Shown one piece after another: positions 13,702-27,524 of a stretch of 64,000 nucleotides of DNA. The stretch lies in NCBI RefSeq assembly GCF_000005825.2, contig NC_013792.1:186001-250000 (forward strand), in the 5' to 3' direction. A program made the translations under genes and the position numbers. Position 1 is the stretch's first letter. Every line of letters begins with the position of its first letter. Origin of the DNA: Alkalihalophilus pseudofirmus OF4 (GTDB lineage Bacteria > Bacillota > Bacilli > Bacillales > Bacillaceae_D). The notes below the pieces were generated by a model. That model searched no databases. It saw nothing but the letters and a program-made list of their open reading frames with translations, and was not told the DNA's origin.

Positions 13702-13830
13702 TCTAGTATCTTTAAAAATTAAAACAATTTATGAGTTACATTAAGGTTAGATAAGTGAAAAAAGTTTGAAAGAATCACCCCTATGAAATATTAATATGTG
13801 TGGTCCCAAATTTTTAATACCTTCTTAAAC

Positions 13831-13866
13831 TAAAGCTCCCGTTACTTTAAGTACATTATTTCACAA
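13831..13866. repeat. Cassette-type repeat, partial copy (left edge of array)
   Basis: Contains CTCCCGTTACTTTAAGTACATTATTTCACAA; the last 29 bases closely match the copy at 27488-27524. It marks the left border of the cassette-like array. Confidence 0.6.
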
Positions 13867-13911
13867 AGCCTCTAATCATTATAAAATCTAAATATGCTTG
13901 TATTAAGAATT

Positions 13912-13947
13912 AAAAAAGTAGCTAATTTCTGCACTAGCTACTTTTTT
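13912..13947. terminator. Bidirectional terminator
   Basis: AAAAAAGTAGCTA-loop-TAGCTACTTTTTT. It lies 12 bases beyond the stop of the minus-strand gene at 13960 and serves that gene; the symmetrical T and A runs allow use from both sides. Confidence 0.8.
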
Positions 13948-13959
13948 AACTATATTAGT

Positions 13960-14334
13960 TTACCAACTAACTCCATATGAATTTTGGAATTGTTCAGCTA
14001 AATGGGGGTGTTCAGTAAGACTAAAAGCATCTAATATCGTCCTATTGTTTTGATAAACTCTAACTATGTACTCGTCACCGTCAGCTTTAGCTAAATAAAA
14101 TTTTCTTAATTGCGGAGAATCTTCTGTTCCAACATACTCAAACGATAAATCACTGCTTGAGCTCAGGACTTCAACCATATTTGCTTCAAGCGTATTTTTT
14201 TGTTGAGTGTTTGCAAATGTAATCATCCCAGCAAAAAATATAAAGGAAAAAATTATAAACCCAACCATACCTTTAGCAATACTAGCTTCATTACCTGTAA
14301 CAACTTTGGATTTTCTATTAACCTCAATTTGCAT
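13960..14334 (-). CDS. Membrane-anchored hypothetical protein
   Basis: 124 aa, with GGAGGTG before the ATG. Residues 22-45 form one membrane segment (GMVGFIIFSFIFFAGMITFANTQ). The remaining 80 residues are predicted to be outside the cell and hold a compact alpha/beta part (FEYVGTEDSPQLRKFYLAKADGDEYIVRVYQNNRTILDAF). Family not recognised. It is the first unit of the minus-strand cassette-like array, with its own terminator. Confidence 0.65.
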   Translation of the reverse strand: MQIEVNRKSKVVTGNEASIAKGMVGFIIFSFIFFAGMITFANTQQKNTLEANMVEVLSSSSDLSFEYVGTEDSPQLRKFYLAKADGDEYIVRVYQNNRTILDAFSLTEHPHLAEQFQNSYGVSW

Positions 14335-14461
14335 AACAACACCTCCAACGCAATATTACTACACAAATTCCAATAATTCACTTTTATTGTTTATTATTCA
14401 CACAAATTACTTATTTTGGAGTTAGCTACTAGGATATTTTATCATGCTCTGATTATGAAAT

Positions 14462-14545
14462 TAACTTGCTTCTTATGCTTAATATAATTTTCCTTTTTTT
14501 AACAAATAAAAAGCATCCCTTTTTTGAAGGAATGCACCCTTGACT
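14462..14545. repeat. Cassette-type repeat, long form, degenerate
   Basis: Has the order AACTTGCTTC...TTAATATAATTTTCCTTTT...AAAAAGCATCCC-TT...AAGGAATGCACCC. The hairpin read on the minus strand, followed by T-rich sequence, would terminate the gene at 14630. Confidence 0.6.
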
Positions 14546-14629
14546 GTAAGTCCATGTCTTTCATAGCCTTACTTCTTTAATATACGAACAAAAAATAGAA
14601 ATGTCTTGTTAAGCGTTGTTCTGTAAGCT

Positions 14630-14866
14630 TTATTCTTTACTTGTTACGGATAATTTTTGAGACAAAAAATAAGCTAATGTTGCGATTGATAAAGTTGTCA
14701 GAATCGGAATTATCGAAGTTTGCCCAAACATTACTTCTTGACTTACACCCATGTTCGTTAAAGAAAAATCAGGAGTATAGAAAGCTGTTAGAACCCACCC
14801 CGATAAAATTTGTAATACGATAAATAGAAGAAAAAAACTAAATATAAATACAGTATATTTTTTCAT
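14630..14866 (-). CDS. Small two-helix membrane protein
   Basis: 78 aa starting MKKYTVFIFSFFLL; AGGGAG is well spaced for this ATG rather than the GTG three codons earlier. There are two membrane segments, at about residues 4-26 and 48-68, separated by a short loop (TPDFSLTNMGVSQEV), and a basic C-terminus. Family not recognised. It is one unit of the cassette-like array, bounded by repeats at 14462-14545 and 14935-14994. Confidence 0.6.
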   Translation of the reverse strand: MKKYTVFIFSFFLLFIVLQILSGWVLTAFYTPDFSLTNMGVSQEVMFGQTSIIPILTTLSIATLAYFLSQKLSVTSKE

Positions 14867-14934
14867 TTTATTCACTCCCTTTTAATTTGATACGATACAC
14901 ATAGAAGTAAGGTTTCAATTATTCCAATATTTAA

Positions 14935-14994
14935 CACTGCTGCCTCTTTAGTTCAATAACAAGAACTAACTCTTCTTCAACTAACCTGCTCCTT
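14935..14994. repeat. Two partial cassette-type repeat ends, the second cut by IS110
   Basis: Contains a partial end CTGCCTCTTTAGTTCAA (14938-14956), then CTAACCTGCTCCTT (14981-14994). The IS110 element follows. Joining 14994 directly to 16621 rebuilds CCTGCTCCTT-AGTTTAACATTAAT, a standard repeat end, so this is an interrupted repeat. Confidence 0.75.
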
Positions 14995-15004
14995 CGTATT
15001 ATAA

Positions 15005-15200
15005 GGTCAGCCAGATAAGAAAATATTTCTGGTTGACCATTTGTTATATGGTTTTATTATAACGGTAGCCGGGGTAAAACGTAACTGCTCGTGGGACTTG
15101 ATCCCGTCAACTAAACAGTTTGCCCCCTACTTGTAGAAACATGATTGAGGCTGGTTGGGACATAGATCTCGTATAACAAGCGAAGCTGTGATACTGCAAG
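15005..15200 (+). ncRNA. Candidate bridge RNA of IS110 copy 1
   Basis: The roughly 250-bp noncoding stretch before the transposase is where IS110 bridge RNAs are encoded. A stem GGGGTAAAAC / GTTTGCCCC encloses a left loop GTAACTGCTCGT, an inner hairpin GGGAC-TTG-ATCCC and a right loop CAACTAAACA. The left loop contains CTGCTC, as does this copy's left flank (CCTGCTCCTT). Copy 2 shows a compensatory base change in the outer stem. This fits a target-binding loop. Confidence 0.6.
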
Positions 15201-15247
15201 AAGGATTAGGGGTACCGGTTAATATTAATATTTGGAGGGGATTGAGA

Positions 15248-16484
15248 ATGAATCCAGTCATTGGTCTGGATGTGTCAAAAGGAGAAAGTCAGGTACAAGC
15301 ATTCATAGATAAAGGGAAACCATACCGTAAGAGCTTTAAGGTATCACATATTAACGAAGGGCTTGAGTCCCTTGTACAATTCATTGAAGGTTTGACAGCT
15401 GAGACAGGGAAGAAACCTCCGGTTATTCTGGAAGCAACAGGACACTATCAAGCTCCTATTGTTCATTATCTTGAGGAACGGGGCTATCTCTTGATTTGTT
15501 ATTAACCCATTGATTTCTTACAAAGCCAAAAGTTCCAGCCTGCGAAAGGTTAAGACGGACGCAGCCGATGCTTATCTTCTGTGTGAACTGTACTATAAAG
15601 AGGAACTTGAACCCTATAAAAAGCGCGGTGTTCAACTCCTAAACTTACGTAATCTTACGAGACAACATGAGAATATTACTGGTACTTTAATTCAGACAAA
15701 GTTACAATTTCAAGCGATTCTAGATCAGGTATTCCCTGAATTTAGAGGAGTGTTTGGAGATTTATATTCCGTTGTGTCCCTGCTAACTTTAAAGGAATTT
15801 CCCTCGTCTGAAGATATTCTAAATGCCAGTGATGAGGTCTTGACCGAAAAGATCCACGGGAATTGTAAGAGTCGTTCACTAAGTTGGGCTAGTGATAAAG
15901 CAGCCCAAATCAAAGCTGCGGCCATTCGAAATCCGTTTGAGAAAGCCGTTTATCAGAGTCACATTTTGAGCCTTGGAATGTTTATTAATATTATCCTCCA
16001 ATACAAAGAGCACCTATCAATGTTAGAATCCGAGATAGATGCCCTTGCGCAAGAAGTTGAAGAATATGAAGTTATCAAATCAATTCCTGGTATCGGAGAA
16101 AAAATCGCTGCAACGATTATATCCGAGATTGGGGAAATTGATCGATTTGACCATCCAAAGAAGCTAGTCGCATTCGCTGGAGTGGATCCAAGCGTTTTTG
16201 AATCTGGTAAATTCACAGCTACTAAGAATCGAATAACCAAGCGTGGCTCCAGCAGGCTTCGTCACGCGTTATATATGGCCGTACGTTGTGCCATTCGAGA
16301 CTGTCGTAAGAAGAAAACGAGTGATGAAATTATCCCTCGTAATAAGAAGTTACGTGAGTTCTACGACAAGAAACGTGATGAAGGAAAACCTTTTAAGGTG
16401 GCTGTCATTGCTTGTGTGAATAAGCTCTTACATTGGATTTATGCCCTGTTAAAAAGCAACACATTATTCCAAGATGTAGTTTAG
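15248..16484 (+). pseudogene. IS110 transposase, copy 1, disrupted by a +1 frameshift
   Basis: Start MNPVIGLDVSKGESQVQAF. The frame runs to a stop at 15505. It then resumes one base shifted, as PLISYKAKSSSLRKVKTDAADAY, and continues to 16484. Removing one T from the TTT at 15495-15497 restores LLIVINPLISYKAKSS, which aligns with copy 2. The DEDD residues of the RuvC-like domain and the C-terminal DPSVFESGKF...KRGSSRLRHAL serine region are all present across the two pieces. It is therefore a recent inactivation, a sequencing error, or an unproven frameshift product. Confidence 0.85.
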
Positions 16485-16620
16485 TCACTACGTCTATCTA
16501 AATAGTCCAGAACCTTCCATGTGTTGAGAAATGGTAGGTTATTTAGTGCACTCATTTTTAGTATATCATTTGTATTTTAACTTTTTTATTGAAAAATATT
16601 GACAAACTATTAGCTGGTTT

Positions 16621-16692
16621 AGTTTAACATTAATTTCCTTTTTGTTGACAAACAAAAAAGCATCCCTTGTTGAAGGAATGCCACCCGTTACT
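16621..16692. repeat. Cassette-type repeat, long form, right part after IS110 copy 1
   Basis: AGTTTAACATTAATTTCC...GTTGACAAAC...AAAAAAGCATCCCTT-GTTG-AAGGAATGCCACCCGTTAC. On the minus strand the GCATTCCTT/AAGGGATGC hairpin plus T-run acts as a terminator for the gene at 16708. Confidence 0.8.
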
Positions 16693-16707
16693 TTAATAAT
16701 ATTTTGT

Positions 16708-17151
16708 TTATTCTGATTTATTTAATAACTCAAAGGTTTCTTCTAAACCATCCCATTTCACAATAACGGGTATGATTTCATCCTCATATACTTTAGCTCC
16801 ATTATCACTACTATTTGACCTTAATGTAATGTCAGTGGGTGGTTCATCAAACTCTCTGCTTCCACTACCCTCTCCAGCTGATGTTTTATAGTTATATTCT
16901 ATTTTTTCTATTGTTTGCATCTCTTCAACGTCCCCTTTGTAGGAGAGTGTAAATACATCGCTATTGATTGTAGAATATGTCGTCCTTCCATTTTTCTCCT
17001 TCTGTGTTTCTTCACTCTCAAAAACATATTCAGCTTCCCAATACGCACCTTCACCTATAAAGGTGTATCTGTCATTCACAACTTCTTCGTTACTACATGC
17101 GGTAAGCAAGACCGTTATCACAATAATGGAAATGAAAATTAAATTTTTCAA
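16708..17151 (-). CDS. Lipoprotein of unknown function
   Basis: 147 aa with a TTG start after AGGGGGAG. Signal sequence KNLIFISIIVITVLLTAC ends in a clear lipobox (LTAC), so Cys-19 should be lipidated and the protein held on the outer face of the membrane. The remainder is an acidic beta-rich domain (YTFIGEGAYWEAEYVFE...TLSYKGDVEEM...VIVKWDGLEETFEL), a pattern seen in small Bacillus lipoproteins. It is a single-gene unit whose repeat on each side has been split by an IS110 copy. Confidence 0.8.
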   Translation of the reverse strand: MKNLIFISIIVITVLLTACSNEEVVNDRYTFIGEGAYWEAEYVFESEETQKEKNGRTTYSTINSDVFTLSYKGDVEEMQTIEKIEYNYKTSAGEGSGSREFDEPPTDITLRSNSSDNGAKVYEDEIIPVIVKWDGLEETFELLNKSE

Positions 17152-17211
17152 ATCGCTACTCCCCCTTTTTAATGAAATCCCCTCTTATTACTACAACTTG
17201 TTATTGAATAA

Positions 17212-17271
17212 TCCTGCTCCGTTACTCCAATAAGGAAAAGCGATAACCCTTATTCAGCTATCGCACCCGTT
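17212..17271. repeat. Cassette-type repeat, short form, cut by IS110 copy 2
   Basis: CCTGCTCCGTTACTCCAATAAGG...AGCGATA-ACC...CAGC-TATCGCACCCGTT; IS110 copy 2 follows directly. With the base after the element (AGTGAAAG) it rebuilds CACCCGTT-AG, the other end of the repeat family. Confidence 0.8.
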
Positions 17272-17281
17272 CGTAATATAA

Positions 17282-17480
17282 GGTTAGCCAGATAAGAAAA
17301 TATTTCTGGTTGACCTTATTTTTTATGGTCATATGATAGCGGTAGTCGGGGTAGAACGTCGCACCCGTGGGACTCGATCCCGTTAGCTAAACTGTTCGCC
17401 CCCTACTTGTATGAACATGTTTCAGGCTGGTTGGGACATAGAAATGATCCCGTTTAACAAGCGAACCTATGACACTACAA
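17282..17480 (+). ncRNA. Candidate bridge RNA of IS110 copy 2
   Basis: Same layout as in copy 1: stem GGGGTAGAAC / GTTCGCCCC, left loop GTCGCACCCGT, inner hairpin GGGAC-TCG-ATCCC, right loop GTTAGCTAAACT. TCGCACCCGT in the left loop is identical to the ten bases that end one base before the insertion point. In copy 1 the pair at the stem base is A-T where it is G-C here, a compensatory change. Confidence 0.65.
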
Positions 17481-17528
17481 GAAGCTCTAGGGGTTACCGA
17501 CTAATTTATTTCTAGGAGTTGATAAACA

Positions 17529-18767
17529 ATGAATCCAGTCATCGGTCTGGATGTCTCAAAAGGAGAAAGTCAGGTTCAAGCCTTCTTGGACAAGGGAAAG
17601 CCTTATCGTAAGAGTTTCAGTATTAAACATAATCGTGAGGGTCTCGAGACATTCTTGGCATTTCTTCAAGAAGTCGAACAAGCAGCACAAGGACAACCAC
17701 CTTCTGTGGTTTTAGAGTCGACAGGTCATTATCATCTACCTGTGATTCAGTTTCTGGAGGACCAAAAGTATGTGTATATTGTCATCAACCCACTCATTTC
17801 GCATCGAGCGAAAAGTTCGAGCTTACGCAAGGTAAAAACAGATGCCGTTGATGCGTATCATTTGTGCGAGCTTTACTACAAGGAGGAGCTTGAACCCTAT
17901 AAAAAACGAGGGATTCAACTCTTAAATCTTCGTAATTTAACCAGACAACAAGAGACGATCGCTGAAGTATCGGCGAATACGAAACTACAACTCCATTCCT
18001 TATTGGATCAGGTGTTTCCTGAATACAGAGGCGTATTTGGTAGTTTGTATTCGAAGGTATCGTTATTAACCCTGCAGGCTTTTCCAACTTCAGAGGCTGT
18101 CTTACAAGTGGATGAGTCTGAATTGGTCGAAAAGATCGCTTCGTTATGTAAAAGTCGTTCTGAGAGGTGGGCCATAGAAAAAGCACAAAAGCTGCGAGAG
18201 GCTGCCTTGCGTAACCCGTTTCAAAAGAATTTGTATGAGAGTCATATTTTTAATTTGGAGATGTTAACGAACATCGTTCTTCAATACCAAGAGCACCTAT
18301 CCAACATCGCAACTGAAATAGATGCCCTTGCGAAAGAAATTGAAGAATATCAGATTATCCAATCTATTCCCGGAATTGGAGAAAAGATCGCCGCCACGAT
18401 TACTTCTGAGATCGGTGAGATAGATCGGTTTAATCACCCAAAGAAGTTGGTTGCATTCGCTGGAGTCGACCCTAGTGTTTACTCTTCAGGAAAGTTTACA
18501 GCTTCCGTTAATCGGATAACTAAAAGAGGCTCTTCCAGACTGAGACATGCCTTATTTATGGCCGTTCAATGCGGGATTAGAGATTCTCGTAAGCAAAAGA
18601 CAACCGACGAAATTATTGCACGGAACAAGAGACTCAGAGAGTTTTACGATAAAAAACGCGAAGAAGGTAAACCATTTAGAGTCGCTGTCATTGCTTGTGT
18701 CAATAAACTCTTACATTGGATTTATGCTTTACTGAAAAGCAAAACACCTTTCCAAGATGTAGCTTGA
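17529..18767 (+). CDS. IS110 family transposase (DEDD recombinase)
   Basis: 412 aa, full length. The N-terminal RuvC-like DEDD domain shows Asp in VIGLDVSKGES, Glu in SVVLESTGHYH and paired Asp in VKTDAVDAYHL. The central region is helical. The C-terminal Tnp_20-type domain has QSIPGIGEKIAATI and FAGVDPSVYSSGKFTASVNRITKRGSSRLRHAL with the catalytic serine region. IS110 recombinases work with a bridge RNA that specifies target and donor. The gene follows 257 bp of noncoding left end containing the proposed RNA. Confidence 0.93.
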   Translation: MNPVIGLDVSKGESQVQAFLDKGKPYRKSFSIKHNREGLETFLAFLQEVEQAAQGQPPSVVLESTGHYHLPVIQFLEDQKYVYIVINPLISHRAKSSSLRKVKTDAVDAYHLCELYYKEELEPYKKRGIQLLNLRNLTRQQETIAEVSANTKLQLHSLLDQVFPEYRGVFGSLYSKVSLLTLQAFPTSEAVLQVDESELVEKIASLCKSRSERWAIEKAQKLREAALRNPFQKNLYESHIFNLEMLTNIVLQYQEHLSNIATEIDALAKEIEEYQIIQSIPGIGEKIAATITSEIGEIDRFNHPKKLVAFAGVDPSVYSSGKFTASVNRITKRGSSRLRHALFMAVQCGIRDSRKQKTTDEIIARNKRLREFYDKKREEGKPFRVAVIACVNKLLHWIYALLKSKTPFQDVA

Positions 18768-18916
18768 TAGCTATATCTAACTAGATAGACCAAGACCTTC
18801 CAAAAAGTACAGATTGGTAGGTTATTTGGTATACTCATTTTTAGTATAGCATGTGTAATTTCATTTTTTTATTGAAAATGTTGACAAACTATTAGCTGGT
18901 TTAGTGAAAGAACACG

Positions 18917-19699
18917 CTATTTCTTTTCAGCAACTATATAAACATAATCACCTAAGTCGCTACTAAAGTTATTAAGAACATTTTCTATTTTTTTAGTTTC
19001 AATGTCCTTTTTGAGCTTATTACAACCTTCTTCCACTTCTTCTTTAGATGCCAAATTTGCAAAGGTAGATATTCCTGAGCGTACTTTTTCATCTAAATAC
19101 ATCTTTGGTTCATACTTGCCACTATAAAGGAAGAAATCTTTTAAATTAGGTTGTATCAAGAATGTTTCATGACCAACAATATTAAATCCAACAGTTTTCA
19201 ATATATCGCTGACTTCTACTATACTCGGCATTTGATTAGCAGATTTTTTCAATAGCGTCTGGAAAATATTCTTTTAGCCAATAATTTTTCATCTGTTCAG
19301 GGGATGAAGTAAAAATGACAAATCTACCTTTATCAAGAACTCTAAAAACCTCTTTAAAAGCAGGTAACAGTTCATTAAAATGGTGAATAGCTAATGTACA
19401 AGTTACTCCTTCAAAAACGTTATTCTCATAAGGTAGTTTGTTTACATCAGCTACTTCCCAATCTATTGTGCTTGATTTCCCTTTAGCTTTTTTAATCATC
19501 TCTTCTGAAACATCGCTTCCAGTTATTTTTAAACCCGTTTTTTCTAAAGCAATAGTATAATTTCCTGTTCCACAAGCAATATCGAGAACTCTGCTTCCGT
19601 TAGGTACTTGTAAATGATTTCGTAACCGACTTGCGATTTCGGGGTCAGCTTTAGGGGAGTATCATAAGTTAAGCCAATGCTATCGTATAAAGATGTCAT
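18917..19699 (-). pseudogene. Class I SAM-dependent methyltransferase, two frameshifts
   Basis: Begins MTSLYDSIGLTYDT (ATG at 19699). The frame then shifts by one base near 19660 and continues as KADPEIASRLRNHL, with motif I VLDIACGTGNY. LAIHHFNELLPAFKEVFRVLDKGRFVIFT corresponds to later motifs. A second one-base shift occurs in an A6 run (plus strand 19242-19247), after which SANQMPSIVEVSDIL leads to the stop at 18917. The parts together make a normal methyltransferase of about 260 aa. The two single-base indels make it a pseudogene unless they are sequencing errors. IS110 copy 2 lies immediately downstream. Confidence 0.8.
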
Positions 19700-19759
19700 T
19701 TCTAAACCTCCTACACTAAATTATCCTTATATGCATATTACCATTTAATCATTTTTTCG

Positions 19760-19845
19760 AACTATTTTGTTTCTATAGTTTAATATTATTTTCCTTTTAT
19801 TCGACTTAGAAAAAGCTTTCCTTGTTGAAGGAATGCACCCGATAG
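19760..19845. repeat. Cassette-type repeat, long form, degenerate left end
   Basis: TATAGTTTAATATTATTTTCC...TTCGACTTAG...AAAAAGCTTTCCTT-GTTG-AAGGAATGCACCCGATAG. The right end has GATAG in place of GTTAG. It separates the methyltransferase and GNAT units. Confidence 0.7.
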
Positions 19846-19857
19846 TAAATAAACACC

Positions 19858-20286
19858 TTAGTTCAATTGCTTATAAAATCCTGTGGCTTTTCCTTCAAAC
19901 CCTCTACGAATATAATAATTGTGTGCATCGTTTCTTTCAGTCCGATTACCACTATTCAAAGTCACCATTTTTGCTCCTTGTTTTTTAGCCCAGTTCTCAG
20001 CTTCATTTAATAGCTTAGTACCAATACCATTACCTCTTAATCCAGAGTTTACAACAAAAGCAACCACCCTTATATAACTTTCACTTTTTTCAAAACGGTA
20101 ACATAAAATCATTCCAATCATTCCAAGTAATTTCTCATCTTCTTCGTACACATAAGTCTGATAAGCATTATTTGAAAGAATATTAGACATTCTATAATTC
20201 ATCTCATCGATATTAGTCGGGTACCCCAATTCTCCCATCAACTCCGCTAAACCCCCAATATCCTGCTTTGTTGCTTCTCTAATCAT
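19858..20286 (-). CDS. GNAT family N-acetyltransferase
   Basis: 142 aa, with GGGGAGG before the ATG. The fold is recognisable: N-terminal IREATKQDIGGLAELM, central strand VYEEDEKLLGMIGMILC, then the acetyl-CoA loop VVNSGLRGNGIGTKLLNEAENWAKKQG (R-G-x-G-I/T-G type), ending in the YYIRRGFEGKATGFYKQL helix-strand. It transfers an acetyl group from acetyl-CoA; the substrate is unknown. It is a compact single-gene unit: the repeat starts soon after the stop and another lies about 40 bases upstream of the start. Confidence 0.88.
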   Translation of the reverse strand: MIREATKQDIGGLAELMGELGYPTNIDEMNYRMSNILSNNAYQTYVYEEDEKLLGMIGMILCYRFEKSESYIRVVAFVVNSGLRGNGIGTKLLNEAENWAKKQGAKMVTLNSGNRTERNDAHNYYIRRGFEGKATGFYKQLN

Positions 20287-20323
20287 TTCTTTTTCCTCCC
20301 CAAAAAATTATTTTCTTGTTGTA

Positions 20324-20406
20324 TTAACCTGCTCTTTAGTTTAACATTAATTTCCTTTTAGTTGACAAAGAAAAAAGCATCCCTAGTTAAGGAATGCACC
20401 CGATAG
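20324..20406. repeat. Cassette-type repeat, long form
   Basis: TTAACCTGCTCTTTAGTTTAAC...ATTAATTTCCTTTT...GTTGACAAAG...AAAAAAGCATCCC-TAGTT-AAGGAATGCACCCGATAG. Close to the family consensus. Confidence 0.8.
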
Positions 20407-20412
20407 ATGAAA

Positions 20413-20937
20413 TTACATTTCATTCAAAATTTCATCAACAAACTGTTTCTTTTCATTTGTATATGAATGTTCATCGTTAGGGTATTTTTCTGCTAGATTT
20501 TTCTTGAGTGACTCATATTCCTTAGAAACTAATGGATTTGCATTTAAATAATCTCTGAATGAAATGTGTTCGTTCCACCAATCACCTTGATATTCAACAA
20601 CGTGAAGAATATGTGTCTTGGTTAGGTTTTCTAAGTCAGTAAACTTAGCAAAAACCTCTTTTCCATCAATTTGAACTCTGGATAAATGATAATATCCAGC
20701 TTCTTTTAATCTTTCATTATTAAACTTTTCAACATCCTTTAATGACTCTACACCAACCAATATATCAATAATAGGTTTTGCTTCAATGCCCTTGATTGCT
20801 GTACTGCCAAATTGTTGAATATCCTTTACCTGTTCCCCAATAATCGTCTCCAATAAAGATTTTTCTTTATCAAATAACCTCTTCCAATTTTCAGAATGAG
20901 TAACTAAAATCACTTCACCTTTGTTAACCCCTAACAT
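20413..20937 (-). CDS. GrpB family (UPF0157) nucleotidyltransferase-like protein
   Basis: 174 aa, with AGGGGGAA before the ATG. Shows the family signatures SENWKRLFDKEKSLLETIIG, IQQFGSTAIKGIEAKPIIDILVGV (the GS...D.D-type nucleotidyltransferase motif), THILHVVEYQGDWWNEHISFRDYLNANP and a C-terminal helix with LAEKYPNDEHSYTNEKKQFVDEIL. GrpB-type proteins have a nucleotidyltransferase fold; their substrates are mostly unknown and some resemble dephospho-CoA kinase fusions. Complete length. A single-gene unit in the array. Confidence 0.88.
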   Translation of the reverse strand: MLGVNKGEVILVTHSENWKRLFDKEKSLLETIIGEQVKDIQQFGSTAIKGIEAKPIIDILVGVESLKDVEKFNNERLKEAGYYHLSRVQIDGKEVFAKFTDLENLTKTHILHVVEYQGDWWNEHISFRDYLNANPLVSKEYESLKKNLAEKYPNDEHSYTNEKKQFVDEILNEM

Positions 20938-20970
20938 TTAATTCCCCCTAATGTGTAACTTTCACCTTAA

Positions 20971-21056
20971 ACTAACCTGCCTCTTTAGTTTGACATTAAT
21001 TTCCTTTTCTTTGACATAGAAAAACCATTCCTTTTTAAAGGAATGCACCCGTTAGC
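20971..21056. repeat. Cassette-type repeat, long form
   Basis: CTAACCTGCCTCTTTAGTTTGAC...ATTAATTTCCTTTT...TTTGACATAG...CATTCCTTT...AAAGGAATGCACCCGTTAGCACAA. Here the hairpin arms pair without mismatch, and the ends CTAAC and GTTAG are complementary. Confidence 0.82.
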
Positions 21057-21068
21057 ACAAGAAAGAGT

Positions 21069-21236
21069 TTAATTATTACTAATTGCATTTTTCTTTCTAA
21101 AGTAGCGGAACATTGCTAGAACTACTGCTGAAGTGAATAATAAAAACGAAATCATTATAGAAAGCAATGTAAAGCTCTGTGCTATAAAACTCACAATTAA
21201 CATCACTATGCTTAAAACAAATAAACCAATAACCAT
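21069..21236 (-). CDS. Small two-helix membrane protein
   Basis: 55 aa from MVIGLFVLSIVMLIV, chosen for its AAAGGGGGAA site. Two hydrophobic segments (about residues 2-20 and 24-45) are followed by a basic tail FRYFRKKNAISNN. Nothing else can be said of function. It forms one of the shortest units of the array, between repeats at 20971-21056 and 21308-21370. Confidence 0.6.
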   Translation of the reverse strand: MVIGLFVLSIVMLIVSFIAQSFTLLSIMISFLLFTSAVVLAMFRYFRKKNAISNN

Positions 21237-21307
21237 ATAAATTCCCCCTTTGTAATATTTCAACATAACAATTTCACTTTTTAAAGTAATTGCTTTTCTT
21301 CTTTCAC

Positions 21308-21370
21308 AATCCTGCTCCGTTAGCGGAACAAGGGTAGCGATGCCTTGTTAAAGCATCGAACCCGTTAATG
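21308..21370. repeat. Cassette-type repeat, short form
   Basis: CCTGCTCCGTTAGCGGAACAAGG...AGCGATGCCTT-GTTA-AAGCATCGAACCCGTTAATGG. The CGATGC/GCATCG arms form a hairpin, without the ATTAATTTCC section found in long copies. Confidence 0.8.
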
Positions 21371-21387
21371 GAAAAGAGAAATAGGTT

Positions 21388-21969
21388 CTATCTCATCCCT
21401 ATTTCTCTTTTAAATTCATTTATCTGTTGAGATTGACTGACTGTAAATTCTTCAATTATTTCTTGCTGAAGCTCATTCCAGTTCTTCATTGGATTTTCAT
21501 TTTGTTCATACTCCATTAGCTTTTCCCTCATTACAGCATGAGCATAGGAACTAAGCATATATTCATTCCAATAATCATCTTCAGAAATTCCTAATTGTTC
21601 AATCTCTTCTTGAATGCCAATCAGTACCTCTTTAACATTCTCAGCCTCTTCGTTCTCCAGATCCTCTCTAGTTTCTTGAGACTTTTGAAACGCTTCCTCT
21701 TCTGAAACATTGATACCTACGTCAATTGCTCTATTGATGACTGCTACTTCATTCAATTGAACACGAAAAGCTTCTTCATCAGCATCCTCTTTGGTTAGTC
21801 CACGTTCATCTTGAAGCCTTTCTGCATATTTTACATGTTCCTCTATTGAAAACTCGCTATTAATCAAATTATGCCCTTGACTACCTTGATTAACATTCGA
21901 CGTGTTACCACATGCTGCCAATAATAAAACTATAATTAAACTAAAAGCACTAACACTTACTTTATTGAT
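21388..21969 (-). CDS. Lipoprotein with a SurA/PrsA-like N-terminal region
   Basis: About 193 aa. The in-frame upstream sequence reads NKVSVSAFSLIIVLLLAACGN, a complete lipoprotein signal with an LAAC lipobox. No ATG, GTG or well-placed TTG precedes it. An AAAGGGGAG site lies just before ATT-ATC codons, so initiation at ATC (21967-21969) or ATT, or a mutated start, must be considered; a TTG start inside the signal would remove most of it. The mature part is acidic and helical (FSIEEHVKYAERLQDERGLTKEDADEEAF...), like the helper region of small Bacillus lipoproteins. Array unit. Confidence 0.65.
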   Translation of the reverse strand: MNKVSVSAFSLIIVLLLAACGNTSNVNQGSQGHNLINSEFSIEEHVKYAERLQDERGLTKEDADEEAFRVQLNEVAVINRAIDVGINVSEEEAFQKSQETREDLENEEAENVKEVLIGIQEEIEQLGISEDDYWNEYMLSSYAHAVMREKLMEYEQNENPMKNWNELQQEIIEEFTVSQSQQINEFKREIGMR

Positions 21970-22008
21970 AATAAATCTCCCCTTTAAAACCTATTTTCTT
22001 ATACAACT

Positions 22009-22130
22009 GTCCTGCCAGATAGTTGAATAGCACCTAATACTTTATTTTATCTTAACATTAATTTCCTTTTATTCAGGAGAAAAAGAAAAAAGCGTTGCTG
22101 CTGTTATTCTAGAAACGCATCCGTTTGTTG
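22009..22130. repeat. Cassette-type repeat, long form, with different hairpin
   Basis: CCTGCCAGATAGTTGAATAGCACC...TTAACATTAATTTCCTTTT...AAAAAAGCGTTGCTGC...AGAAACGCATCCGTTTGTTGAAC. The hairpin is GCGTT/AACGC here rather than GCATCCCTT/AAGGAATGC. Confidence 0.65.
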
Positions 22131-22152
22131 AACAAGAAATTTGACAGTTGGT

Positions 22153-22443
22153 TTATAAATTGAAAAATGTAATTATGCCCCAAACAAACAAGCAAACAAA
22201 TATTATTAAGAATACAATGTCTTTGATGTATCTCTTTGTATTATAAAAAAGGAGCTTACAGACCGAGTAAGTTACGCCTATAACCGTTCCTGTGAATACA
22301 AAAATAAATCCAATCATTTTATCAGTTCCATTAACTTGTAATAAGAATACAAAAGTAATAAACATTATAGCTAATACCTTTTTAGTTTTTGAGTATTTAC
22401 TATCATTGAAAATAACATCTTTAAGTTGTACGTTTTCCCCCAT
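22153..22443 (-). CDS. Three-helix membrane protein
   Basis: 96 aa from MGENVQLKDVIFNDSKYSK, selected because GAGGGGGA lies at the right distance; the frame extending to 22497 has no site. Three hydrophobic segments are present, at about residues 23-40, 44-65 and 73-94 (VLAIMFITFVFLLQV, MIGFIFVFTGTVIGVTYSVCKLLF, IVFLIIFVCLFVWGIITFF). Family not recognised. A single-gene unit in the array. Confidence 0.6.
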   Translation of the reverse strand: MGENVQLKDVIFNDSKYSKTKKVLAIMFITFVFLLQVNGTDKMIGFIFVFTGTVIGVTYSVCKLLFYNTKRYIKDIVFLIIFVCLFVWGIITFFNL

Positions 22444-22512
22444 ACAATCCCCCTCTAACTCTTTAAATATTTCGTTCATTTTACCATAACAAACCAATTG
22501 CCTTATTAAAGA

Positions 22513-22535
22513 TTACTGCCTCGTTAGCTTAATAA
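22513..22535. repeat. Cassette-type repeat, one end only
   Basis: ACTGCCTCGTTAGCTTAATAAAC, matching the CCTGC-TC-GTTAG end. The hairpin and the second end are missing; the stop of the serine hydrolase gene falls next to it. Confidence 0.55.
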
Positions 22536-23534
22536 ACAGGTCATTATGGTATCACCAAATTTTCGAACATCAGCTAAGTAATTGAATCCTTCAGGAGAAC
22601 CGAAACTATTAAAGGCACGTACAGCAACTAGATTATGCTGAGGTACAATCAAAAGCGTTACTCCTGTATAGCCCAGAATTTGAAAAGATCCTTTAGGCAA
22701 ATATTCACCAATTTCTGATCTTCTTGTAGGCAAATCTTGTACAAACCATAAGAAACCATTTGTAGGATGTTCTTCATTAATTGTGTTGGGGCTTTGAATT
22801 GAAGTAACTAATTTAAATATTTCGCTTGGAACTATCTGTTTCCCATTTATTAACCCTTCTTTAAGGTGAAAATATCCCCATTTAGCTAACTCTCTTGTAG
22901 AAACATACATATTCATTTTGTCACCGTCTGTACTTTTACTTGTGTACCAATTTGGATCACCAGGCTTCCTTATAACTTCCACAAGTTTCTCATTGAGTTC
23001 CCCGTACCAACCAGTTTCTTTAAATTCTAGGGATTTAAACACTTGATCTACTATTTCGGCTACTGATTGTCCTGTTGTAATCTTGACAATTTGAGTTAAG
23101 AGTTCAATCCCGATTCCTCTATACGCCCAGCTTTCACCTGAAGTAAATTCTTGTTGTAGTTTTCCATTAACCATTTTTAAACCGTGTGTATGAGTTAACA
23201 AATGTCTTATGGTTGTTTTCTGCAGAATTGGTGAATTTATTGATAGATATTTAGTTATTGGGTCATCGGTTGATATTAAACCTTGTTGAACAGCATATGC
23301 TACGGCATATCCTATATAACTTTTTCTAACTGAAGCAACGTGGAATTGAGTATCTTCCTGGATGCTTCTAGCATTATTAGCCTGGGAATGCCTTCCCCAA
23401 TATTCTTCTGTAACTATATTGTTGTTATGTATAATAAAAACTGATGCACCAGAACAATCAACTAGTTCTGAGGTCTTCTTAACATTTAGAACAACCGAAT
23501 CAAACTGATTACTCAACATTTTATTCAAATTCAT
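22524..23534 (-). CDS. Serine hydrolase of the beta-lactamase / penicillin-binding fold
   Basis: 336 aa. The nucleophile motif SxxK is Ser68-Val-Arg-Lys71 in FHVASVRKSYIGYAVAYAV. The following HLLTHTHGLK and GESWAYRGIGIELLTQIV parts are typical of class C-type beta-lactamase-related hydrolases. The third motif is probably the GYTG in FQILGYTGVTLLIVPQHNLVAVR. There is no signal peptide, so the protein is probably cytoplasmic and an esterase or peptidase rather than a resistance beta-lactamase. A ribosome site is weak. It is a full-length single-gene unit of the array. Confidence 0.85.
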   Translation of the reverse strand: MNLNKMLSNQFDSVVLNVKKTSELVDCSGASVFIIHNNNIVTEEYWGRHSQANNARSIQEDTQFHVASVRKSYIGYAVAYAVQQGLISTDDPITKYLSINSPILQKTTIRHLLTHTHGLKMVNGKLQQEFTSGESWAYRGIGIELLTQIVKITTGQSVAEIVDQVFKSLEFKETGWYGELNEKLVEVIRKPGDPNWYTSKSTDGDKMNMYVSTRELAKWGYFHLKEGLINGKQIVPSEIFKLVTSIQSPNTINEEHPTNGFLWFVQDLPTRRSEIGEYLPKGSFQILGYTGVTLLIVPQHNLVAVRAFNSFGSPEGFNYLADVRKFGDTIMTCLLS

Positions 23535-23604
23535 CTTTTCACTACTTTCTTCTTGTTTGGCTTTATCTGCGACTTAATAAAGGTTAATTCCTTTCTACTT
23601 CTTC

Positions 23605-23655
23605 AACTAACCTGCCTCGTTAGCGCAATAAGACAATCGATACCCTTTTGCAAAT
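23605..23655. repeat. Cassette-type repeat, short form
   Basis: CAACTAACCTGCCTCGTTAGCGCAATAAGA...CAATCGATACCCTTTTGCAAATATC. The left end is good; the right GTTAG end is lost. It lies at the boundary where gene direction switches from minus to plus. Confidence 0.65.
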
Positions 23656-23732
23656 ATCTAAAAGTTCTAAAATTTCATTTAGAAGCAGTAATGATATGAT
23701 AGAATTACTTAACTATTGTAAGGAGGAGACAT

Positions 23733-24143
23733 ATGGAAACAATTACACAGATTACTTATAAAGTAAATGAAACAATTAAAGCGGAAGAACTTTCAAATGT
23801 TTTCAAAACATCTGGCATTAAAAGACCGTTTAATGATTTGGAGAGACTTCAACGAATGATTGAAAATTCTAATGTTTTGATTACTGCATGGGATAATGAC
23901 CAAGTCGTTGGTGTTGCTAGGGCTATTACCGACTATTGTTATTGTTGTTACCTATCAGATTTAGCTGTAAATAAAAATTATCAAAGTAAAGGCATAGGTA
24001 AAGAACTGGTGAGTTTAGTACAAGAACATATAGGTGAAGAAGTTGCCTTATTGCTTCTGTCTTCCCCTATTGCGATGGAATACTATCCTAAAATTGGGTT
24101 CGAAAAAATTAAAAATGGATTTAAAATTTCTAGGAAAAAATAA
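23733..24143 (+). CDS. GNAT family N-acetyltransferase
   Basis: 136 aa with AAGGAGGAG before the ATG. The acetyl-CoA motif is LAVNKNYQSKGIGKELVSLVQEHIG (Q-x-x-G-I-G), preceded by VVGVARAITDYCYCCYLSDL. The ending MEYYPKIGFEKIKNGFKISRK is typical of GNATs of the YpeA/PhnO-like class. Substrate unknown. It is the only gene in the array on the plus strand and appears to have its own promoter in the 70 bases upstream (TATGATAGAATT), so this unit is reversed relative to its neighbours. Confidence 0.88.
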   Translation: METITQITYKVNETIKAEELSNVFKTSGIKRPFNDLERLQRMIENSNVLITAWDNDQVVGVARAITDYCYCCYLSDLAVNKNYQSKGIGKELVSLVQEHIGEEVALLLLSSPIAMEYYPKIGFEKIKNGFKISRKK

Positions 24144-24190
24144 TAACCGCGAAGTGTCTTTTAAGTCACTTCTTTTTTATCGCTATTCTT

Positions 24191-24270
24191 TTAACCTGCT
24201 CCTATTAGTTGAAGAAGCGTCAGCCCTGTCACCCGTTAGCACAATAAGGAGTAGCACACTACAAAATGCT
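24191..24270. repeat. Cassette-type repeat, composite
   Basis: TTAACCTGCTCCTATTAGTTGAAGAAGCG...GTCACCCGTTAGCACAATAAGG...AGTAGCACACTACAAAATGC. Both ends are present and a second GTTAG end begins at once, as if two copies were fused. Confidence 0.7.
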
Positions 24271-24307
24271 TAATTGTTGAAGATGAATTACAATAATTCC
24301 TCTTTAT

Positions 24308-24827
24308 CTATTCATTAATGTCATAAACTAAAATATCAAATAATTCATCATTTGTGTAAAGTAAAAATGCCCATTCTCCTTTTTCTGGTAATGCTATATT
24401 AGAAGGCATATGTGCATCTGCACCGTTATTTTCTCCACCAACTTGTCTTGTCCAATAAGAATCTCCACCTGGTCCGTTATATAAAACTTGGTGAACCGTT
24501 TGTGTTTCTTTGTGAAAACCAACAACAGTTAACTCCACATTCTCAACACCCCAGAGATGCCACATCCATTTTTTGTCCATTTAAAGTTGGCATATCTGCA
24601 CCAATAACACCAGATTTGTTTTCATTTCCTATAATTCTTCCATCTCCAAATTCAACAGCTTTCCTTTCCCAATCAATTTTAGTGAAATCACTTTCTTGAA
24701 CAAACGAAGGTATACTTTCTGGTAAGAGAATATTTGTTTCTTTTGTTTCCTCCGAACTACAAGCAACAACAACAAACAGCATACTGACTAACATTAAAAG
24801 CAATGATATTTTTTTCAATAATTTCAT
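24308..24827 (-). pseudogene. Lipoprotein (DUF4871-like), one-base frameshift
   Basis: Signal MKLLKKISLLLMLVSMLFVVVAC with lipobox VVAC, then SSEETKETNILLPESIPSFVQESDFTKIDWERKAVEFGDGRIIGNENKSGVIG, to a stop at 24543. Dropping one A from the A6 run (plus strand 24569-24574) joins NGQK to WMWHLWGVENVELTVVGFHKETQTVH and restores one frame to 24308. The joined protein of about 173 aa matches a Bacillus lipoprotein type in which NGQKWMWHLWG is a known-looking signature. Either a real inactivating slip, transcriptional slippage, or a sequencing error in the homopolymer. Confidence 0.75.
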
Positions 24828-24896
24828 CTCCTAAAGATAAATATTATCAACCTAATAATGTAAACAATAGCATAAAAACCCTTACCTTAGTTTAAG

Positions 24897-24969
24897 TATT
24901 CTGCCCGTTACTTCAACAAGAAGAAACGATTACCCTTTATTTAGCAATCGCTACCCGTTTGTTTAAGTA
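24897..24969. repeat. Cassette-type repeat, short form
   Basis: TTCTGCCCGTTACTTCAACAAG...AACGATTACCC...TAGCAATCGCTACCCGTTTG. It separates the lipoprotein and peptidase units. Confidence 0.75.
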
Positions 24970-24976
24970 CGTCTCT

Positions 24977-26731
24977 TCACAAAGTTTTGTTATACTCCTC
25001 TATATCTTCAACTACACTCTGGATTGACTGTTGCCAGAAATCTGGTTTTGAAATTTCTATATTGAAGTGTTTATGAATAAGTTGTTCAAGTGGCATTAAT
25101 CCAGTCTCACTTAGAAACCATTGGAATTTTTGGTCAAATTGTTTATCCCTTTTAGCAAGGTTTAACAGTCCAATACTCAACAAGAAACCAAAAGAGTAGG
25201 GGTAATTATAAAAAGGAATATTCGCTTGGTAGAACTGTACATATTTAATCCATACAAAAGGTTCATATTCACTTAAACTATATCCATATGCTTTTTCTTG
25301 ACATTGCAACGAAAGTTCTTCTACCTGATTAGCATCTAATGGTCCCTTTTTTCTATTACCATAAAACTTATCTTCAAATAAGAATGCTCCTCTAATTGAC
25401 ATTAAATAATTTAAACTACGCTCAATCTTAGCACCAAGTATAGCTTTTTTGAGTGAAGTATCATCAGTATTTTGAATTACATAATCAATATATGCTGTTT
25501 CAAAGAAAATTGAGGAAGTTTCAGCCATTGTCATTTCGAATGTATCATCTGAGAAAAATAGAGATGGAACGTTTTTCATTTGTTTAAAATGCCAAGCATG
25601 ACCTAATTCGTGCGCAAGTCTTCTAGCACTGTCTATACTATTATCATAATTTAATGATATTCGTGATTCACCTTCTGGAATAAATGGAGCACAAAAGCCT
25701 CCCGGTGGTTTTGTTTTACGTTGCTCTGAATCAACCCATCCCTTTGCTATTGCTCCTTTGACAAATTCACTCATATTGGTGTCAATATCAACAAGGGAAT
25801 CAATAATTCCCTTACTCGCTTGTGAGTATGTAATTTCGTTAGACACCTCCTGAGAAGAAGTCATCAATTCATGCCAAGAAATTCTTTCTTTCCCTACTTC
25901 CCCTGCTTTTATTTTTAAATATCTCGAAAGAGAGTGTATATTGGTATCCACAGTATCCCACATTGTATGAAGCGCTCGTTTAGATATACCATTCAACCTT
26001 AAAGAGTCGTCAAGGTAATCTGTATTTTTCACCATATTCTCTTTCAGTCTCAACCCCACCATTGAATTGTAAACGGATGCAAAAACCTCTGCTTGCGTTT
26101 TAAGTGTTTGGTTAAGTTCCCTGAATGCAAAACGTCTATTAGTTTGTTCTGGATGAGAAAGAGCCAAACTACTAGCTTCAGCAAAAGATATCTCTTTTAC
26201 ATCTTTATCAATGTTGCCTTTTACTTTCAAATTGTTTCGAGCTTGCACATAAATTTCTTCCAGATTACCTAATGTTTCTCTAGCAAAATTTGAAATAATC
26301 TTTTCTTCTTTACTTGTTCTTTGTGTATCCATTAATAATTCCTCTATAAAAACTTTTTGGTTAATACTGTTAGACCAAACTGAAAATTGTTTTTCACTCA
26401 TATTACCGATTCTTTCTTGGAAATTCGACACAATAAAACGGGCTTGCGATTTTAACATCGAAATATTTGTATACAATGATGTTAATAGAGAAGGTTCTAC
26501 GTCTTCTGTTGTTAAACAATAGTAGAAAGATTCTGCCGATTCAAGTTGTTTTATTATTTGTGAAATTGCATTTAATCCACTTTCATTCAATGGATTTAAC
26601 TTCTCACATTCCTCAATTTCTAACAAATTTGCTTTTATACAACTGATATAATTCTTGAATTTTTCCAAGTCTGAATCACACTGAAGAAGGTTATTTAAGT
26701 TCCATCGAGTTGGAGTAATGAATGATTCCAT
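24977..26731 (-). CDS. M3 family oligoendopeptidase (PepF-like)
   Basis: 584 aa, with GGAGGGAAAGG before the ATG. The zinc site HELGH is in SARRLAHELGHAWHFKQM near residue 373, and the third ligand Glu in TFEMTMAETSSIFFET. These and the overall length fit M3 oligoendopeptidase F of Gram-positive bacteria, a cytoplasmic metallopeptidase that cuts short peptides. The N-terminal 200 residues give the usual helical PepF_N part (SNFARETLGNLEEIYVQARNN). Complete. It is the largest unit of the cassette-like array and stands alone. Confidence 0.93.
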   Translation of the reverse strand: MESFITPTRWNLNNLLQCDSDLEKFKNYISCIKANLLEIEECEKLNPLNESGLNAISQIIKQLESAESFYYCLTTEDVEPSLLTSLYTNISMLKSQARFIVSNFQERIGNMSEKQFSVWSNSINQKVFIEELLMDTQRTSKEEKIISNFARETLGNLEEIYVQARNNLKVKGNIDKDVKEISFAEASSLALSHPEQTNRRFAFRELNQTLKTQAEVFASVYNSMVGLRLKENMVKNTDYLDDSLRLNGISKRALHTMWDTVDTNIHSLSRYLKIKAGEVGKERISWHELMTSSQEVSNEITYSQASKGIIDSLVDIDTNMSEFVKGAIAKGWVDSEQRKTKPPGGFCAPFIPEGESRISLNYDNSIDSARRLAHELGHAWHFKQMKNVPSLFFSDDTFEMTMAETSSIFFETAYIDYVIQNTDDTSLKKAILGAKIERSLNYLMSIRGAFLFEDKFYGNRKKGPLDANQVEELSLQCQEKAYGYSLSEYEPFVWIKYVQFYQANIPFYNYPYSFGFLLSIGLLNLAKRDKQFDQKFQWFLSETGLMPLEQLIHKHFNIEISKPDFWQQSIQSVVEDIEEYNKTL

Positions 26732-26813
26732 AACCTTTCCCTCCTTCTAAATTGAAGCCTAACATTAAGTCCTATAACCTAGTTATTACTAAAACCAAGT
26801 AGTGTTATTTAAT

Positions 26814-26896
26814 GAACCTGCTCCCTTAGTTTAACATTAATTTCCTTTTCGTTGACAAACAAAAAAGCATCCCTTGTATGCACCCTTTAGTTTAAG
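26814..26896. repeat. Cassette-type repeat, long form, hairpin arm deleted
   Basis: AACCTGCTCCCTTAGTTTAAC...ATTAATTTCCTTTT...GTTGACAAAC...AAAAAAGCATCCCTTG-TATGCACCCTTTAG. The GAAGGA of the second arm is missing. Confidence 0.78.
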
Positions 26897-26902
26897 AAGA
26901 AA

Positions 26903-27430
26903 TCAATATTTGAATGCAGGATTTTCTTTTATATTCAGAAGGATTTTATCTAATTCTGATGGCTGTAAGTTAGTTGTATTATAGACAAAGCGATTATCTA
27001 TTCCTTTACTTTCAAATTCATTTATTAATTCTAAACATCTAACTCCCATCTGATGTTCTTTAATCCTTAAAGCATCTCTTCTTAGCAGTTCATCACCATC
27101 CACCCATAAAACAACATATATAATTTCTACGTCCTTTACCTCTGTATAAATCTTTTGAGAAAATTTTTCTACTTCTACTGGAAATGCAACATAATCAATG
27201 ATTACATTCTTATTCGCCTGAACAAAGTTAATACTTAAATCGGCTATATTTACCCAGGTTAATGATAGTAATTTCTCGCTTTCCCACGGTGGAACGTATC
27301 CACCAATAACCATATGATTGATTAGGTCACCTTCAATATATGCACTGTTCTCAAACTGTTCAGTAAGCTTCTTTGAAGTGGTGGATTTACCGACTCCTGC
27401 TGGACCAGATATTATATAAATTTTATTCAT
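26903..27430 (-). CDS. P-loop kinase-like ATPase
   Basis: 175 aa from MNKIYIISGPAGVGKSTTSKKLTEQF; a GTG three codons earlier is an alternative. Walker A GPAGVGKSTT is at residues 9-18. VIIDYVAFPVEVEKF is the Walker B-like strand, and LLRRDALRIKEHQMG gives a lid with Arg residues. The pattern matches small AAA_33/AAA_18-type nucleoside or sugar kinases of Bacillus. The substrate is unknown. Single-gene unit near the right border of the array. Confidence 0.83.
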   Translation of the reverse strand: MNKIYIISGPAGVGKSTTSKKLTEQFENSAYIEGDLINHMVIGGYVPPWESEKLLSLTWVNIADLSINFVQANKNVIIDYVAFPVEVEKFSQKIYTEVKDVEIIYVVLWVDGDELLRRDALRIKEHQMGVRCLELINEFESKGIDNRFVYNTTNLQPSELDKILLNIKENPAFKY

Positions 27431-27487
27431 TTTTTCCACCCACTCTTAATATGTTCATATCTATTTCAATGTTAATACCTTCTTCCA

Positions 27488-27524
27488 CTAACCTGCTCGT
27501 TACTTTAAGTACATCGTTTCACAA
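27488..27524. repeat. Cassette-type repeat, partial copy (right edge of array)
   Basis: CTAACCTGCTCGTTACTTTAAG...TACATCGTTTCACAA, similar to the partial copy at 13831-13866. The two lie on opposite borders of the array, 13.6 kb apart. CTGCTCGT here equals the guide loop of IS110 copy 1. Confidence 0.7.

Follow-up and report, generated by a model that had tools for sequence, protein, structure and literature searches.

The window analysed here, 64,000 nt of Alkalihalophilus pseudofirmus OF4 DNA (contig NC_013792.1, positions 186,001 to 250,000), contains two insertion sequences (IS) of the IS110 group, designated copies 1 and 2. In the left end of each lies a bridge RNA, with a loop that resembles the DNA next to that copy. 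The locus raises the question of whether these loops select the insertion sites, and how two neighbouring elements came to carry different loops. An earlier, sequence-only reading of this DNA had answered that a changed loop retargeted the same element here, moving it between the two ends of a cassette-type repeat. Comparison with relatives suggested a different answer. The two copies very probably represent sister lineages with different guides, within a Bacillaceae IS110 lineage whose bridge-RNA guides are specialised on the boxes of a cassette-type repeat. Coordinates below are those of the window, in which the two elements, their parts and the boxes that they interrupt are on the + strand; the prefixes L, G and C denote loci, genomes and contigs.

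The two IS110 elements

Copy 1 occupies positions 14995..16617 and copy 2 positions 17272..18899. The ends were set by script, and the TT cores (14993-14994 and 16618-16619 for copy 1; 17270-17271 and 18900-18901 for copy 2) were excluded. The transposase gene of copy 2 (17529..18767) is an open frame of 412 aa. That of copy 1 (15248..16484) is broken by a frameshift, with one open frame ending at 15505 and a second one running from 15510 to 16484.

The copy 2 transposase contained the DEDD N-terminal domain (PF01548, 7.2e-33) and the Transposase_20 C-terminal domain (PF02371, 1.4e-24), and scored 257.7 bits with the NCBI IS110 model NF033542 (cut-off 140). It also matched the PDB chains of IS621 and ISCro4 (phmmer), the best stretch being C-terminal. 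The motifs IGLDVSKG, LESTGHY, KTDAVDA and VDPSVYSSGKF, which have catalytic roles, were present.

Upstream of the transposase start codon is a non-coding left end of about 255 bases. The RNA lies at this left end in both copies, unlike that of the IS1111 type, which lies at the right end. Within the terminal 50 bases, exact inverted repeats did not exceed 7 bases in copy 1 and 5 in copy 2, short of the sub-terminal inverted repeats of the IS1111 type, which are usually 11-13 bp.

The two left ends had been described as nearly identical. This did not hold, because 54 of the first 250 alignment columns differed, and the two copies were 71.7% identical over 1620 aligned bases. The same genome holds two elements of the copy 2 type (copy 2 itself and L001, 100% identical) and three of the copy 1 type (copy 1, L003 and L005). 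L003 lies on the same 285-kb contig, is 99.8% identical to copy 1 and has an open transposase frame. In L005 (contig C3) the match was limited to residues 1-229 and contained an internal stop. Copy 2 was also 99.6% identical to L165, on a plasmid of Alkalihalophilus pseudofirmus (NZ_CP117836.1).

A separate observation concerns the relative L042, in which the right end of a further element copy (CTATTAGCTGG TT) forms the left flank, an arrangement like that of a tandem insertion.

A conserved RNA fold around the loop

The target- and donor-binding part of the left end was aligned for 39 elements (alignment A2) and a consensus fold was derived. In this fold, an outer stem is accompanied by a first stem, which has an internal loop and an apical hairpin, and by a second stem-loop. 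The part spans 15061..15220 in copy 1 and 17338..17502 in copy 2, as placed by the alignment, the consensus fold and the pair counts.

Of the first internal loop, one arm is the left target guide (LTG) and the other the right target guide (RTG). In copy 1 the LTG is TAACTGCTCGT (15082..15092; columns 21-31 of A2), and the RTG is CAACTAAA (15108..15115), the reverse complement of which begins TTTAGTT, identical to the start of the right flank. In copy 2 the LTG, as read from the sequence, is TCGCACCCGT (17359..17368), and the RTG is TAGCTAAA (17384..17391), which pairs with TTTAG of the right flank and is mismatched after it. The two arms match opposite strands of the target, with the bottom-strand match first, as in IS110 elements.

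Two further parts were read in copy 1. A 5' stem-loop upstream of the guides (15005..15038; GGTCAGCCAGA...TCTGGTTGACC) would, by analogy with the IS621 layout, belong to the bridge RNA. A putative donor-binding loop, belonging to the second stem-loop, was placed at 15148..15184. In it, GGCTGGTT resembles the right end plus core (AGCTGGTT), and a stretch ending in GCGAA resembles the core plus left end, with the fit limited to TTCG.

The fold was paired in 99.3% of 1519 cells, compared with 96.6% after shuffling. Ten of 39 pairs had both bases altered in one sequence or more, compared with 4.4 after shuffling; covariation scored 0.153, compared with 0.101. For each of these three measures, none of 500 shuffles was as high. 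Control structures slid by 1 to 3 columns gave at most three doubly changed pairs. A compensatory pair in the outer stem, noticed earlier between copies 1 and 2, proved real and recurrent, being G-C in 35 and A-U in 4 of the 39 sequences. A scan of the window with Rfam gave nothing above the gathering scores. The alignment supported a position of the loop within a conserved and covarying RNA structure whose layout is that of an IS110 bridge RNA.

Guides and flanks change together

Within the window, the resemblance of each loop to its own flank stood up to inspection. The 10/10 match of copy 2 was specific, with TCGCACCCGT occurring at just two places on either strand, 17261 (flank) and 17359 (loop). 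The 7/8 match of copy 1 was also found, its flank reading CTGCTCCT. The distant repeat said to match the copy 1 loop at 8/8 does exist, but not at 27488 as had been given; CTGCTCGT occurs only at 15085 and 27493.

Relatives were taken from the best 80 of 251 stretches that encode one. From these, 69 elements were parsed in the loci of 65 relatives and, together with 5 of the own genome, gave 74; 70 were kept, and 4 with truncated or masked flanks were dropped. The other 15 of the 80 relatives fell outside the parsing pattern. Among the unparsed loci, L038, L039, L040, L041, L049 and L069 had flanks that by eye resemble the guide centre, and in L045 the left flank is the transposase-start sequence, probably through a scaffold join. 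L021, L030, L031, L044, L047, L077 and L081 were without a readable left end. L042, with the left flank described above, also belongs to these 15.

The LTG matched its own left flank at 8.04 of 10 positions on average (n=70, with a 1-nt bulge allowed at a cost), compared with 6.23 (sd 0.16) when guides were shuffled among elements without regard to their kinship; none of 5000 shuffles was as high. Bulge-free matching gave 7.26 against 5.89 (0/5000). When the set was reduced to 38 representatives with bridge RNA likeness below 95%, the first eight positions gave 6.55 against 4.89 (0/5000). The RTG behaved likewise toward the right target, with 5.90 of 7 against 5.41 (n=58; 0/5000), and with 6.00 against 5.49 of 7 for 30 representatives (0/5000).

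The guides fell mainly into two classes, CTG and GCN. The class of the LTG and that of the flank agreed in 64 of the 70 elements. One-base class differences were seen in L014, L023, the second element of L065 and L091. The match persisted inside each class, at 6.54 against 5.86 for GCN (n=39; 0/5000) and 6.62 against 6.19 for CTG (n=26; 1/5000). Of the elements, 74, 74 and 71% were identical to the expected flank position at LTG positions 3, 4 and 5, respectively, and these were the row maxima.

Closely related pairs showed the same correspondence for guide changes of one to three bases. L078 and L079 are 97.9% identical, and their sole difference in the first 250 columns is a C to T change in the LTG. 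Their flanks, CGCACCCGTT and CGCACCTGTT, differ by the same C to T change. L059 and L052 are 97.0% identical, and in the first 170 columns differ only at two adjacent bases of the RTG (CAGCTAAA and CAAGTAAA; AGC to AAG). The right flanks read TTTAGTT in L059 and TTTACTT in L052, with RTG fits of 6/7 and 7/7; the left flank of L052 was masked. A change of class separates L061 from L087, two elements of one strain (Bacillus sp. CH30_1T) with 90.8% identity, whose LTGs are CCCTGCCCGT (CTG) and CCGCCCCCGT (GCC). Their flanks, CCTGCCCGTT and CGCCCCCGTT, match their own LTGs. This pair is less clean, because a gap (N) and a doubled left end occur at each of the two loci.

A transposase tree of 71 rows was built by a quick method, with support from the Shimodaira-Hasegawa-like approximate likelihood ratio test (SH-aLRT). 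It omitted the short translations, namely copy 2 (represented by the identical L001), L005 and L080. Separation of the CTG class from the rest required at least three changes on this tree, and the closest switch pair was L061/L087. Two independent guide switches lay on well-supported branches, and in both the flank followed the guide.

Both the correlation of loop with flank among relatives and the conserved structure around the loop, which the sequence-only reading had put forward as checks, were thus found.

Two boxes of one composite repeat

A target matrix was built from 58 reconstructed IS target sites (consensus cnTTnTTcAAcaAacgcnCCCGTTAGTTtAAgaAnAA); the sites that it detects are IS-target-like by definition, because it was built from IS targets. 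In the matrix scan, copy 1 was found to interrupt a CTG-type box, with the left part at 14971..14994 and the right part from 16618, followed by a GCAC-type partner box at 16666..16702. Copy 2 interrupts a GCAC-type box, with the left part at 17248..17271 and the right part from 18900, preceded by a CTG-type partner box at 17200..17236. Both elements lie in a cassette-type site array at 13820..27514.

All 16 sites with a matrix score of at least 16 between 13800 and 27600 were on the + strand. In ten stretches (the window and nine loci), 158 of 168 sites were on the majority strand; the stretches used for spacing and gene orientation had been chosen as site-rich or as containing a recombinase match. 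Neighbouring sites 40 to 120 bases apart formed 36 pairs, and 21 of these were 57 to 60 bases apart. Thirty of the 36 pairs started with a CTG box, and 18 of the 30 were typed CTG then GCN. In those pairs that were folded, a hairpin lay between the boxes.

The GCAC-box pattern was present in all ten genomes bearing relatives, with 167 matches compared with 2 for the reversed pattern. It was present in 24 of 41 family genomes, and the reversed pattern in 5 of the 41. The flanks of 65 insertions (204 kb) contained 137 further sites, compared with 0 in one shuffle. At least one further site was present for 48 of the 65 insertions, and 133 of the 137 shared the orientation of the target.

For 23 of the 65 insertions, a partner box lay no further than about 140 bp away. 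It was on the left for 13 of 14 elements with GCN or TGG guides, and on the right for all nine with CTG guides. This side preference, consistent in 22 of the 23, indicated that each guide class addresses its own box of a single composite repeat, in agreement with the earlier suggestion that the two copies correspond to opposite ends of a cassette-type repeat. The left box is the one used by CTG-guided elements, and the right box that used by GCN-guided elements.

Composite-repeat arrays were also observed more widely, between small accessory genes and mostly in one orientation, on Bacillaceae chromosomes and plasmids (window 13820-27514; L143-L154).

An empty site

The gene between the two elements has a counterpart, 96-97% identical, in a genome of the same genus (G018; locus L188, G018:C70). 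At the edge of that gene, in the position of copy 1, G018 has the uninterrupted CTG-type box CTGCTCCTTTAGTTTAACATT, which is what results when the two copy 1 flanks are joined at a single TT. To the left of the box, G018 differs from the window, as if another cassette preceded it. Because of this difference, we interpreted the G018 site as an empty site equivalent in kind and position, and not as a proven ancestral allele.

Possible course of insertion

Each element would function with two parts, the DEDD recombinase gene (broken in copy 1) and the bridge RNA of the left end. On excision, the ends would join around the TT core, and a promoter would be created at the joint, from which the bridge RNA would be made. 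The right end of copy 2 (18881..18899) reads TTGACA AACTATTAGCTGG. When the ends were joined in silico, TTGACA was followed after 17 bases by TAATAT in copy 2 or TATTAT in copy 1, a combination that from its sequence may act as a promoter. Promoter-like matches between 14900 and 19000 numbered 9, compared with 10.8 expected, and were not in excess.

The LTG, about 10 nt, would represent the left target sequence plus the first core base, and the RTG, about 7 nt, would be complementary to the right target. The RNA-recombinase complex would then insert the circle where both guides fit, with exchange at TT. LTGs of the CTG class, as in copy 1, would direct the element to the left box, and those of the GCN class, as in copy 2, to the right box. 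In the likely order of events, guides would mutate between insertions and later insertions would follow them.

Alternative explanations

Retargeting of one element in this genome between the repeat ends, by a loop change, was the original proposal. Some observations speak for it: this genome carries both guide classes, as do four or more further assemblies (N. drentensis JC05, D. indicus MSL 225.1.2, Bacillus sp. J33 and Bacillus sp. CH30_1T), and L061/L087 show such a switch at 90.8% identity. We consider it very unlikely here, however, as copies 1 and 2, at 71.7% identity, belong to the separate CTG and GCN groups of the tree (copy 2 as L001). Moreover, for both of them, nearly identical copies carry the same guide beside different flanks (L001 and L165 for copy 2; L003 for copy 1), copy 2 being almost the same element as L165 on the plasmid. 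By these sequence comparisons, box-class switching is instead something that happened elsewhere in the lineage, at least three times on the tree, with the Bacillus sp. CH30_1T pair as the closest example.

The direction of the correspondence is a separate matter, as the loop might have been rewritten after insertion to match the local target. One guide was found in different flanks in four sets: copy 2, L001 and L165 (99.6-100% identical); copy 1, L003 (99.8%) and L005; L053, L054, L056 and L057 of Priestia abyssalis, with identical transposases; and L034, L035 and L048 of Lysinibacillus contaminans, also with identical transposases. Because the guide is kept while the flanks differ, it is the guide that picks the site. 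A transfer from target to guide is therefore highly improbable, although it would produce a match like the 10/10 of copy 2, and L078/L079 taken alone can be read in both directions. It is barely credible, finally, that the likeness reflects shared ancestry or low complexity, such that any guide fits any site. CCCG is indeed common to the box centres, and shuffled guides still matched at about 6.2 of 10. Own guides nevertheless beat shuffled ones, overall and inside both the GCN and CTG classes. The signal also persisted with one representative per bridge RNA group, and small guide changes were mirrored in the flank.

Several observations weigh against a lineage with specialised bridge-RNA guides. 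Agreement between the RTG and the right flank over the first five bases was limited to 42 of 58 elements. The class labels of LTG and flank were discordant in 6 of 70, one of which (L029) is a labelling artefact, and the LTG fit was poor in L083 (2/10), L090 (4) and L029 (5). In 16 of 70 insertions (L025, L051, L054 and others), the match required one additional base to separate the matched part of the flank from the core. The left core was not TT in 11 of 70, being AT in ten (L018, L024, L028, L029, L032-L036 and L085) and CT in L083. These extra-base fits and non-TT cores indicated that core and register are not fixed. The two well-supported guide switches are too few for a sign test. As to the RNA, further pair types were not in excess (20 compared with 19.0 in shuffles; 155/500 as high), and single-sequence folds of copies 1 and 2 were ordinary relative to shuffles (z 0.27 and -0.11), so that the case for the RNA rests on the alignment.

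Relation to known systems

The core of IS621 is CT. In the elements described here the core is TT, the transposase is 412 aa long compared with 328 in IS621, and the target is the Bacillaceae cassette-type repeat. The left-end RNA has the layout published for the bridge RNA of IS621 and IS110 (Durrant et al., 2024; PMC11208160).

Natural redirection has been described for ISEc21 and ISMch6, in which a three-base difference between the guides goes along with a difference in target, at 72% transposase identity (Siddiquee et al., 2024; PMC11187229). This almost parallels copies 1 and 2. In that study it concerned one pair with a single ISMch6 copy; the present set comprises about 70 elements, both guide arms, near-identical pairs and two boxes per site. 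The same paper also describes an IS1111-attC group (ISKpn4, ISPst6) that targets one end of certain integron attC sites. The likeness lies in a transposon lineage specialised on gene-cassette recombination sites. That group, as described there, is of IS1111 type with a right-end RNA and a reversed guide order, whereas the present elements are of IS110 type and their site, by the fold of two examples, is not attC.

Given the published guide-target covariation and redirection (2024) and the attC-hitting IS1111 elements, the present elements fall within a known type. As far as word searches of the open-access literature show, novelty lies in the lineage, in its target and in the division of the guide classes between two boxes. 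A search by words, not by sequence, of the open-access literature on cassettes and integrons in Bacillaceae and on IS110 with attC turned up no description of the composite site in titles or abstracts. The passages of PMC12690207 consulted (integron-like, Bacillales) do not describe it. In the phylum of Bacillaceae, IntegronFinder 2.0 lists one complete integron and a few clusters of attC sites lacking an integron-integrase (CALIN).

The lineage constitutes a natural mutational series for bridge RNA targeting, in which near-same backbones carry one-, two- and three-base guide changes tracked by the flank. It includes one-base bulges and alternative core bases, and lends itself to comparison with screens of engineered guides. 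The target matters more than the elements. If it serves a Bacillaceae cassette system as a recombination site, the IS110 guides provide an independent read-out of such sites across dozens of species.

The arrays as a candidate cassette system

Genes in the arrays were mostly antiparallel to the sites (in five stretches, 62 of 80 open reading frames of 90 aa or more). One of these genes, of the GrpB family, was together with its sites (window 20323-21063) 98.4% identical to L165:10099-10841 on the A. pseudofirmus plasmid, where it has other neighbours. The similarity between window and plasmid ended inside the boxes on both sides.

A tyrosine recombinase of 281 aa was found inside or beside arrays (L152:10179-11021, - strand; L167-L173). 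Its best scores were with the XerA, XerD and XerC models; no cut-off was passed, those of the integron integrase models included. Among 22 loci with homologues, a site lay within 1.5 kb in all 14 with at least 70% identity, several of which are near-copies and some partial, and in none of the 8 with less than 60%. At five recombinase loci, a GCN-type box started 35-38 bases past the end of the match. At E 1e-55 the recombinase was present in 14 of 41 family genomes, and it was open in one genome of the same species. The own genome gave no match at this threshold and has a broken recombinase remnant at C2:54314-54721.

The box edges, AACTAAC...GTTAGTT, had led us at first to take the repeat for an integron attC site. 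Two sites, one typed and one from the window, were folded as DNA on both strands. They formed separate hairpins with the outer ends unpaired, and the attC assignment was not supported. With TIGR02249 (IntI), the own genome and six further genomes gave weak matches to tyrosine recombinases, none above the cut-off.

The 281-aa protein is a candidate cassette recombinase, through which the cassettes would be mobile. The composite-repeat arrays may represent a cassette system of integron-like nature, so far undescribed, with a site type of its own. The chances seem evenly balanced that the IS110 lineage parasitises such a Bacillaceae system, in which accessory genes bordered by CTG box, hairpin and GCAC box would be shuffled by the XerA-like recombinase, and that there are two guide classes because there are two boxes.

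Outside the array, the window contains at 29061-29843 six copies of a 24-base repeat (GCGGTAATTTGCGATCT...), spaced 134-158 bases apart, which are perhaps iterons or binding sites.

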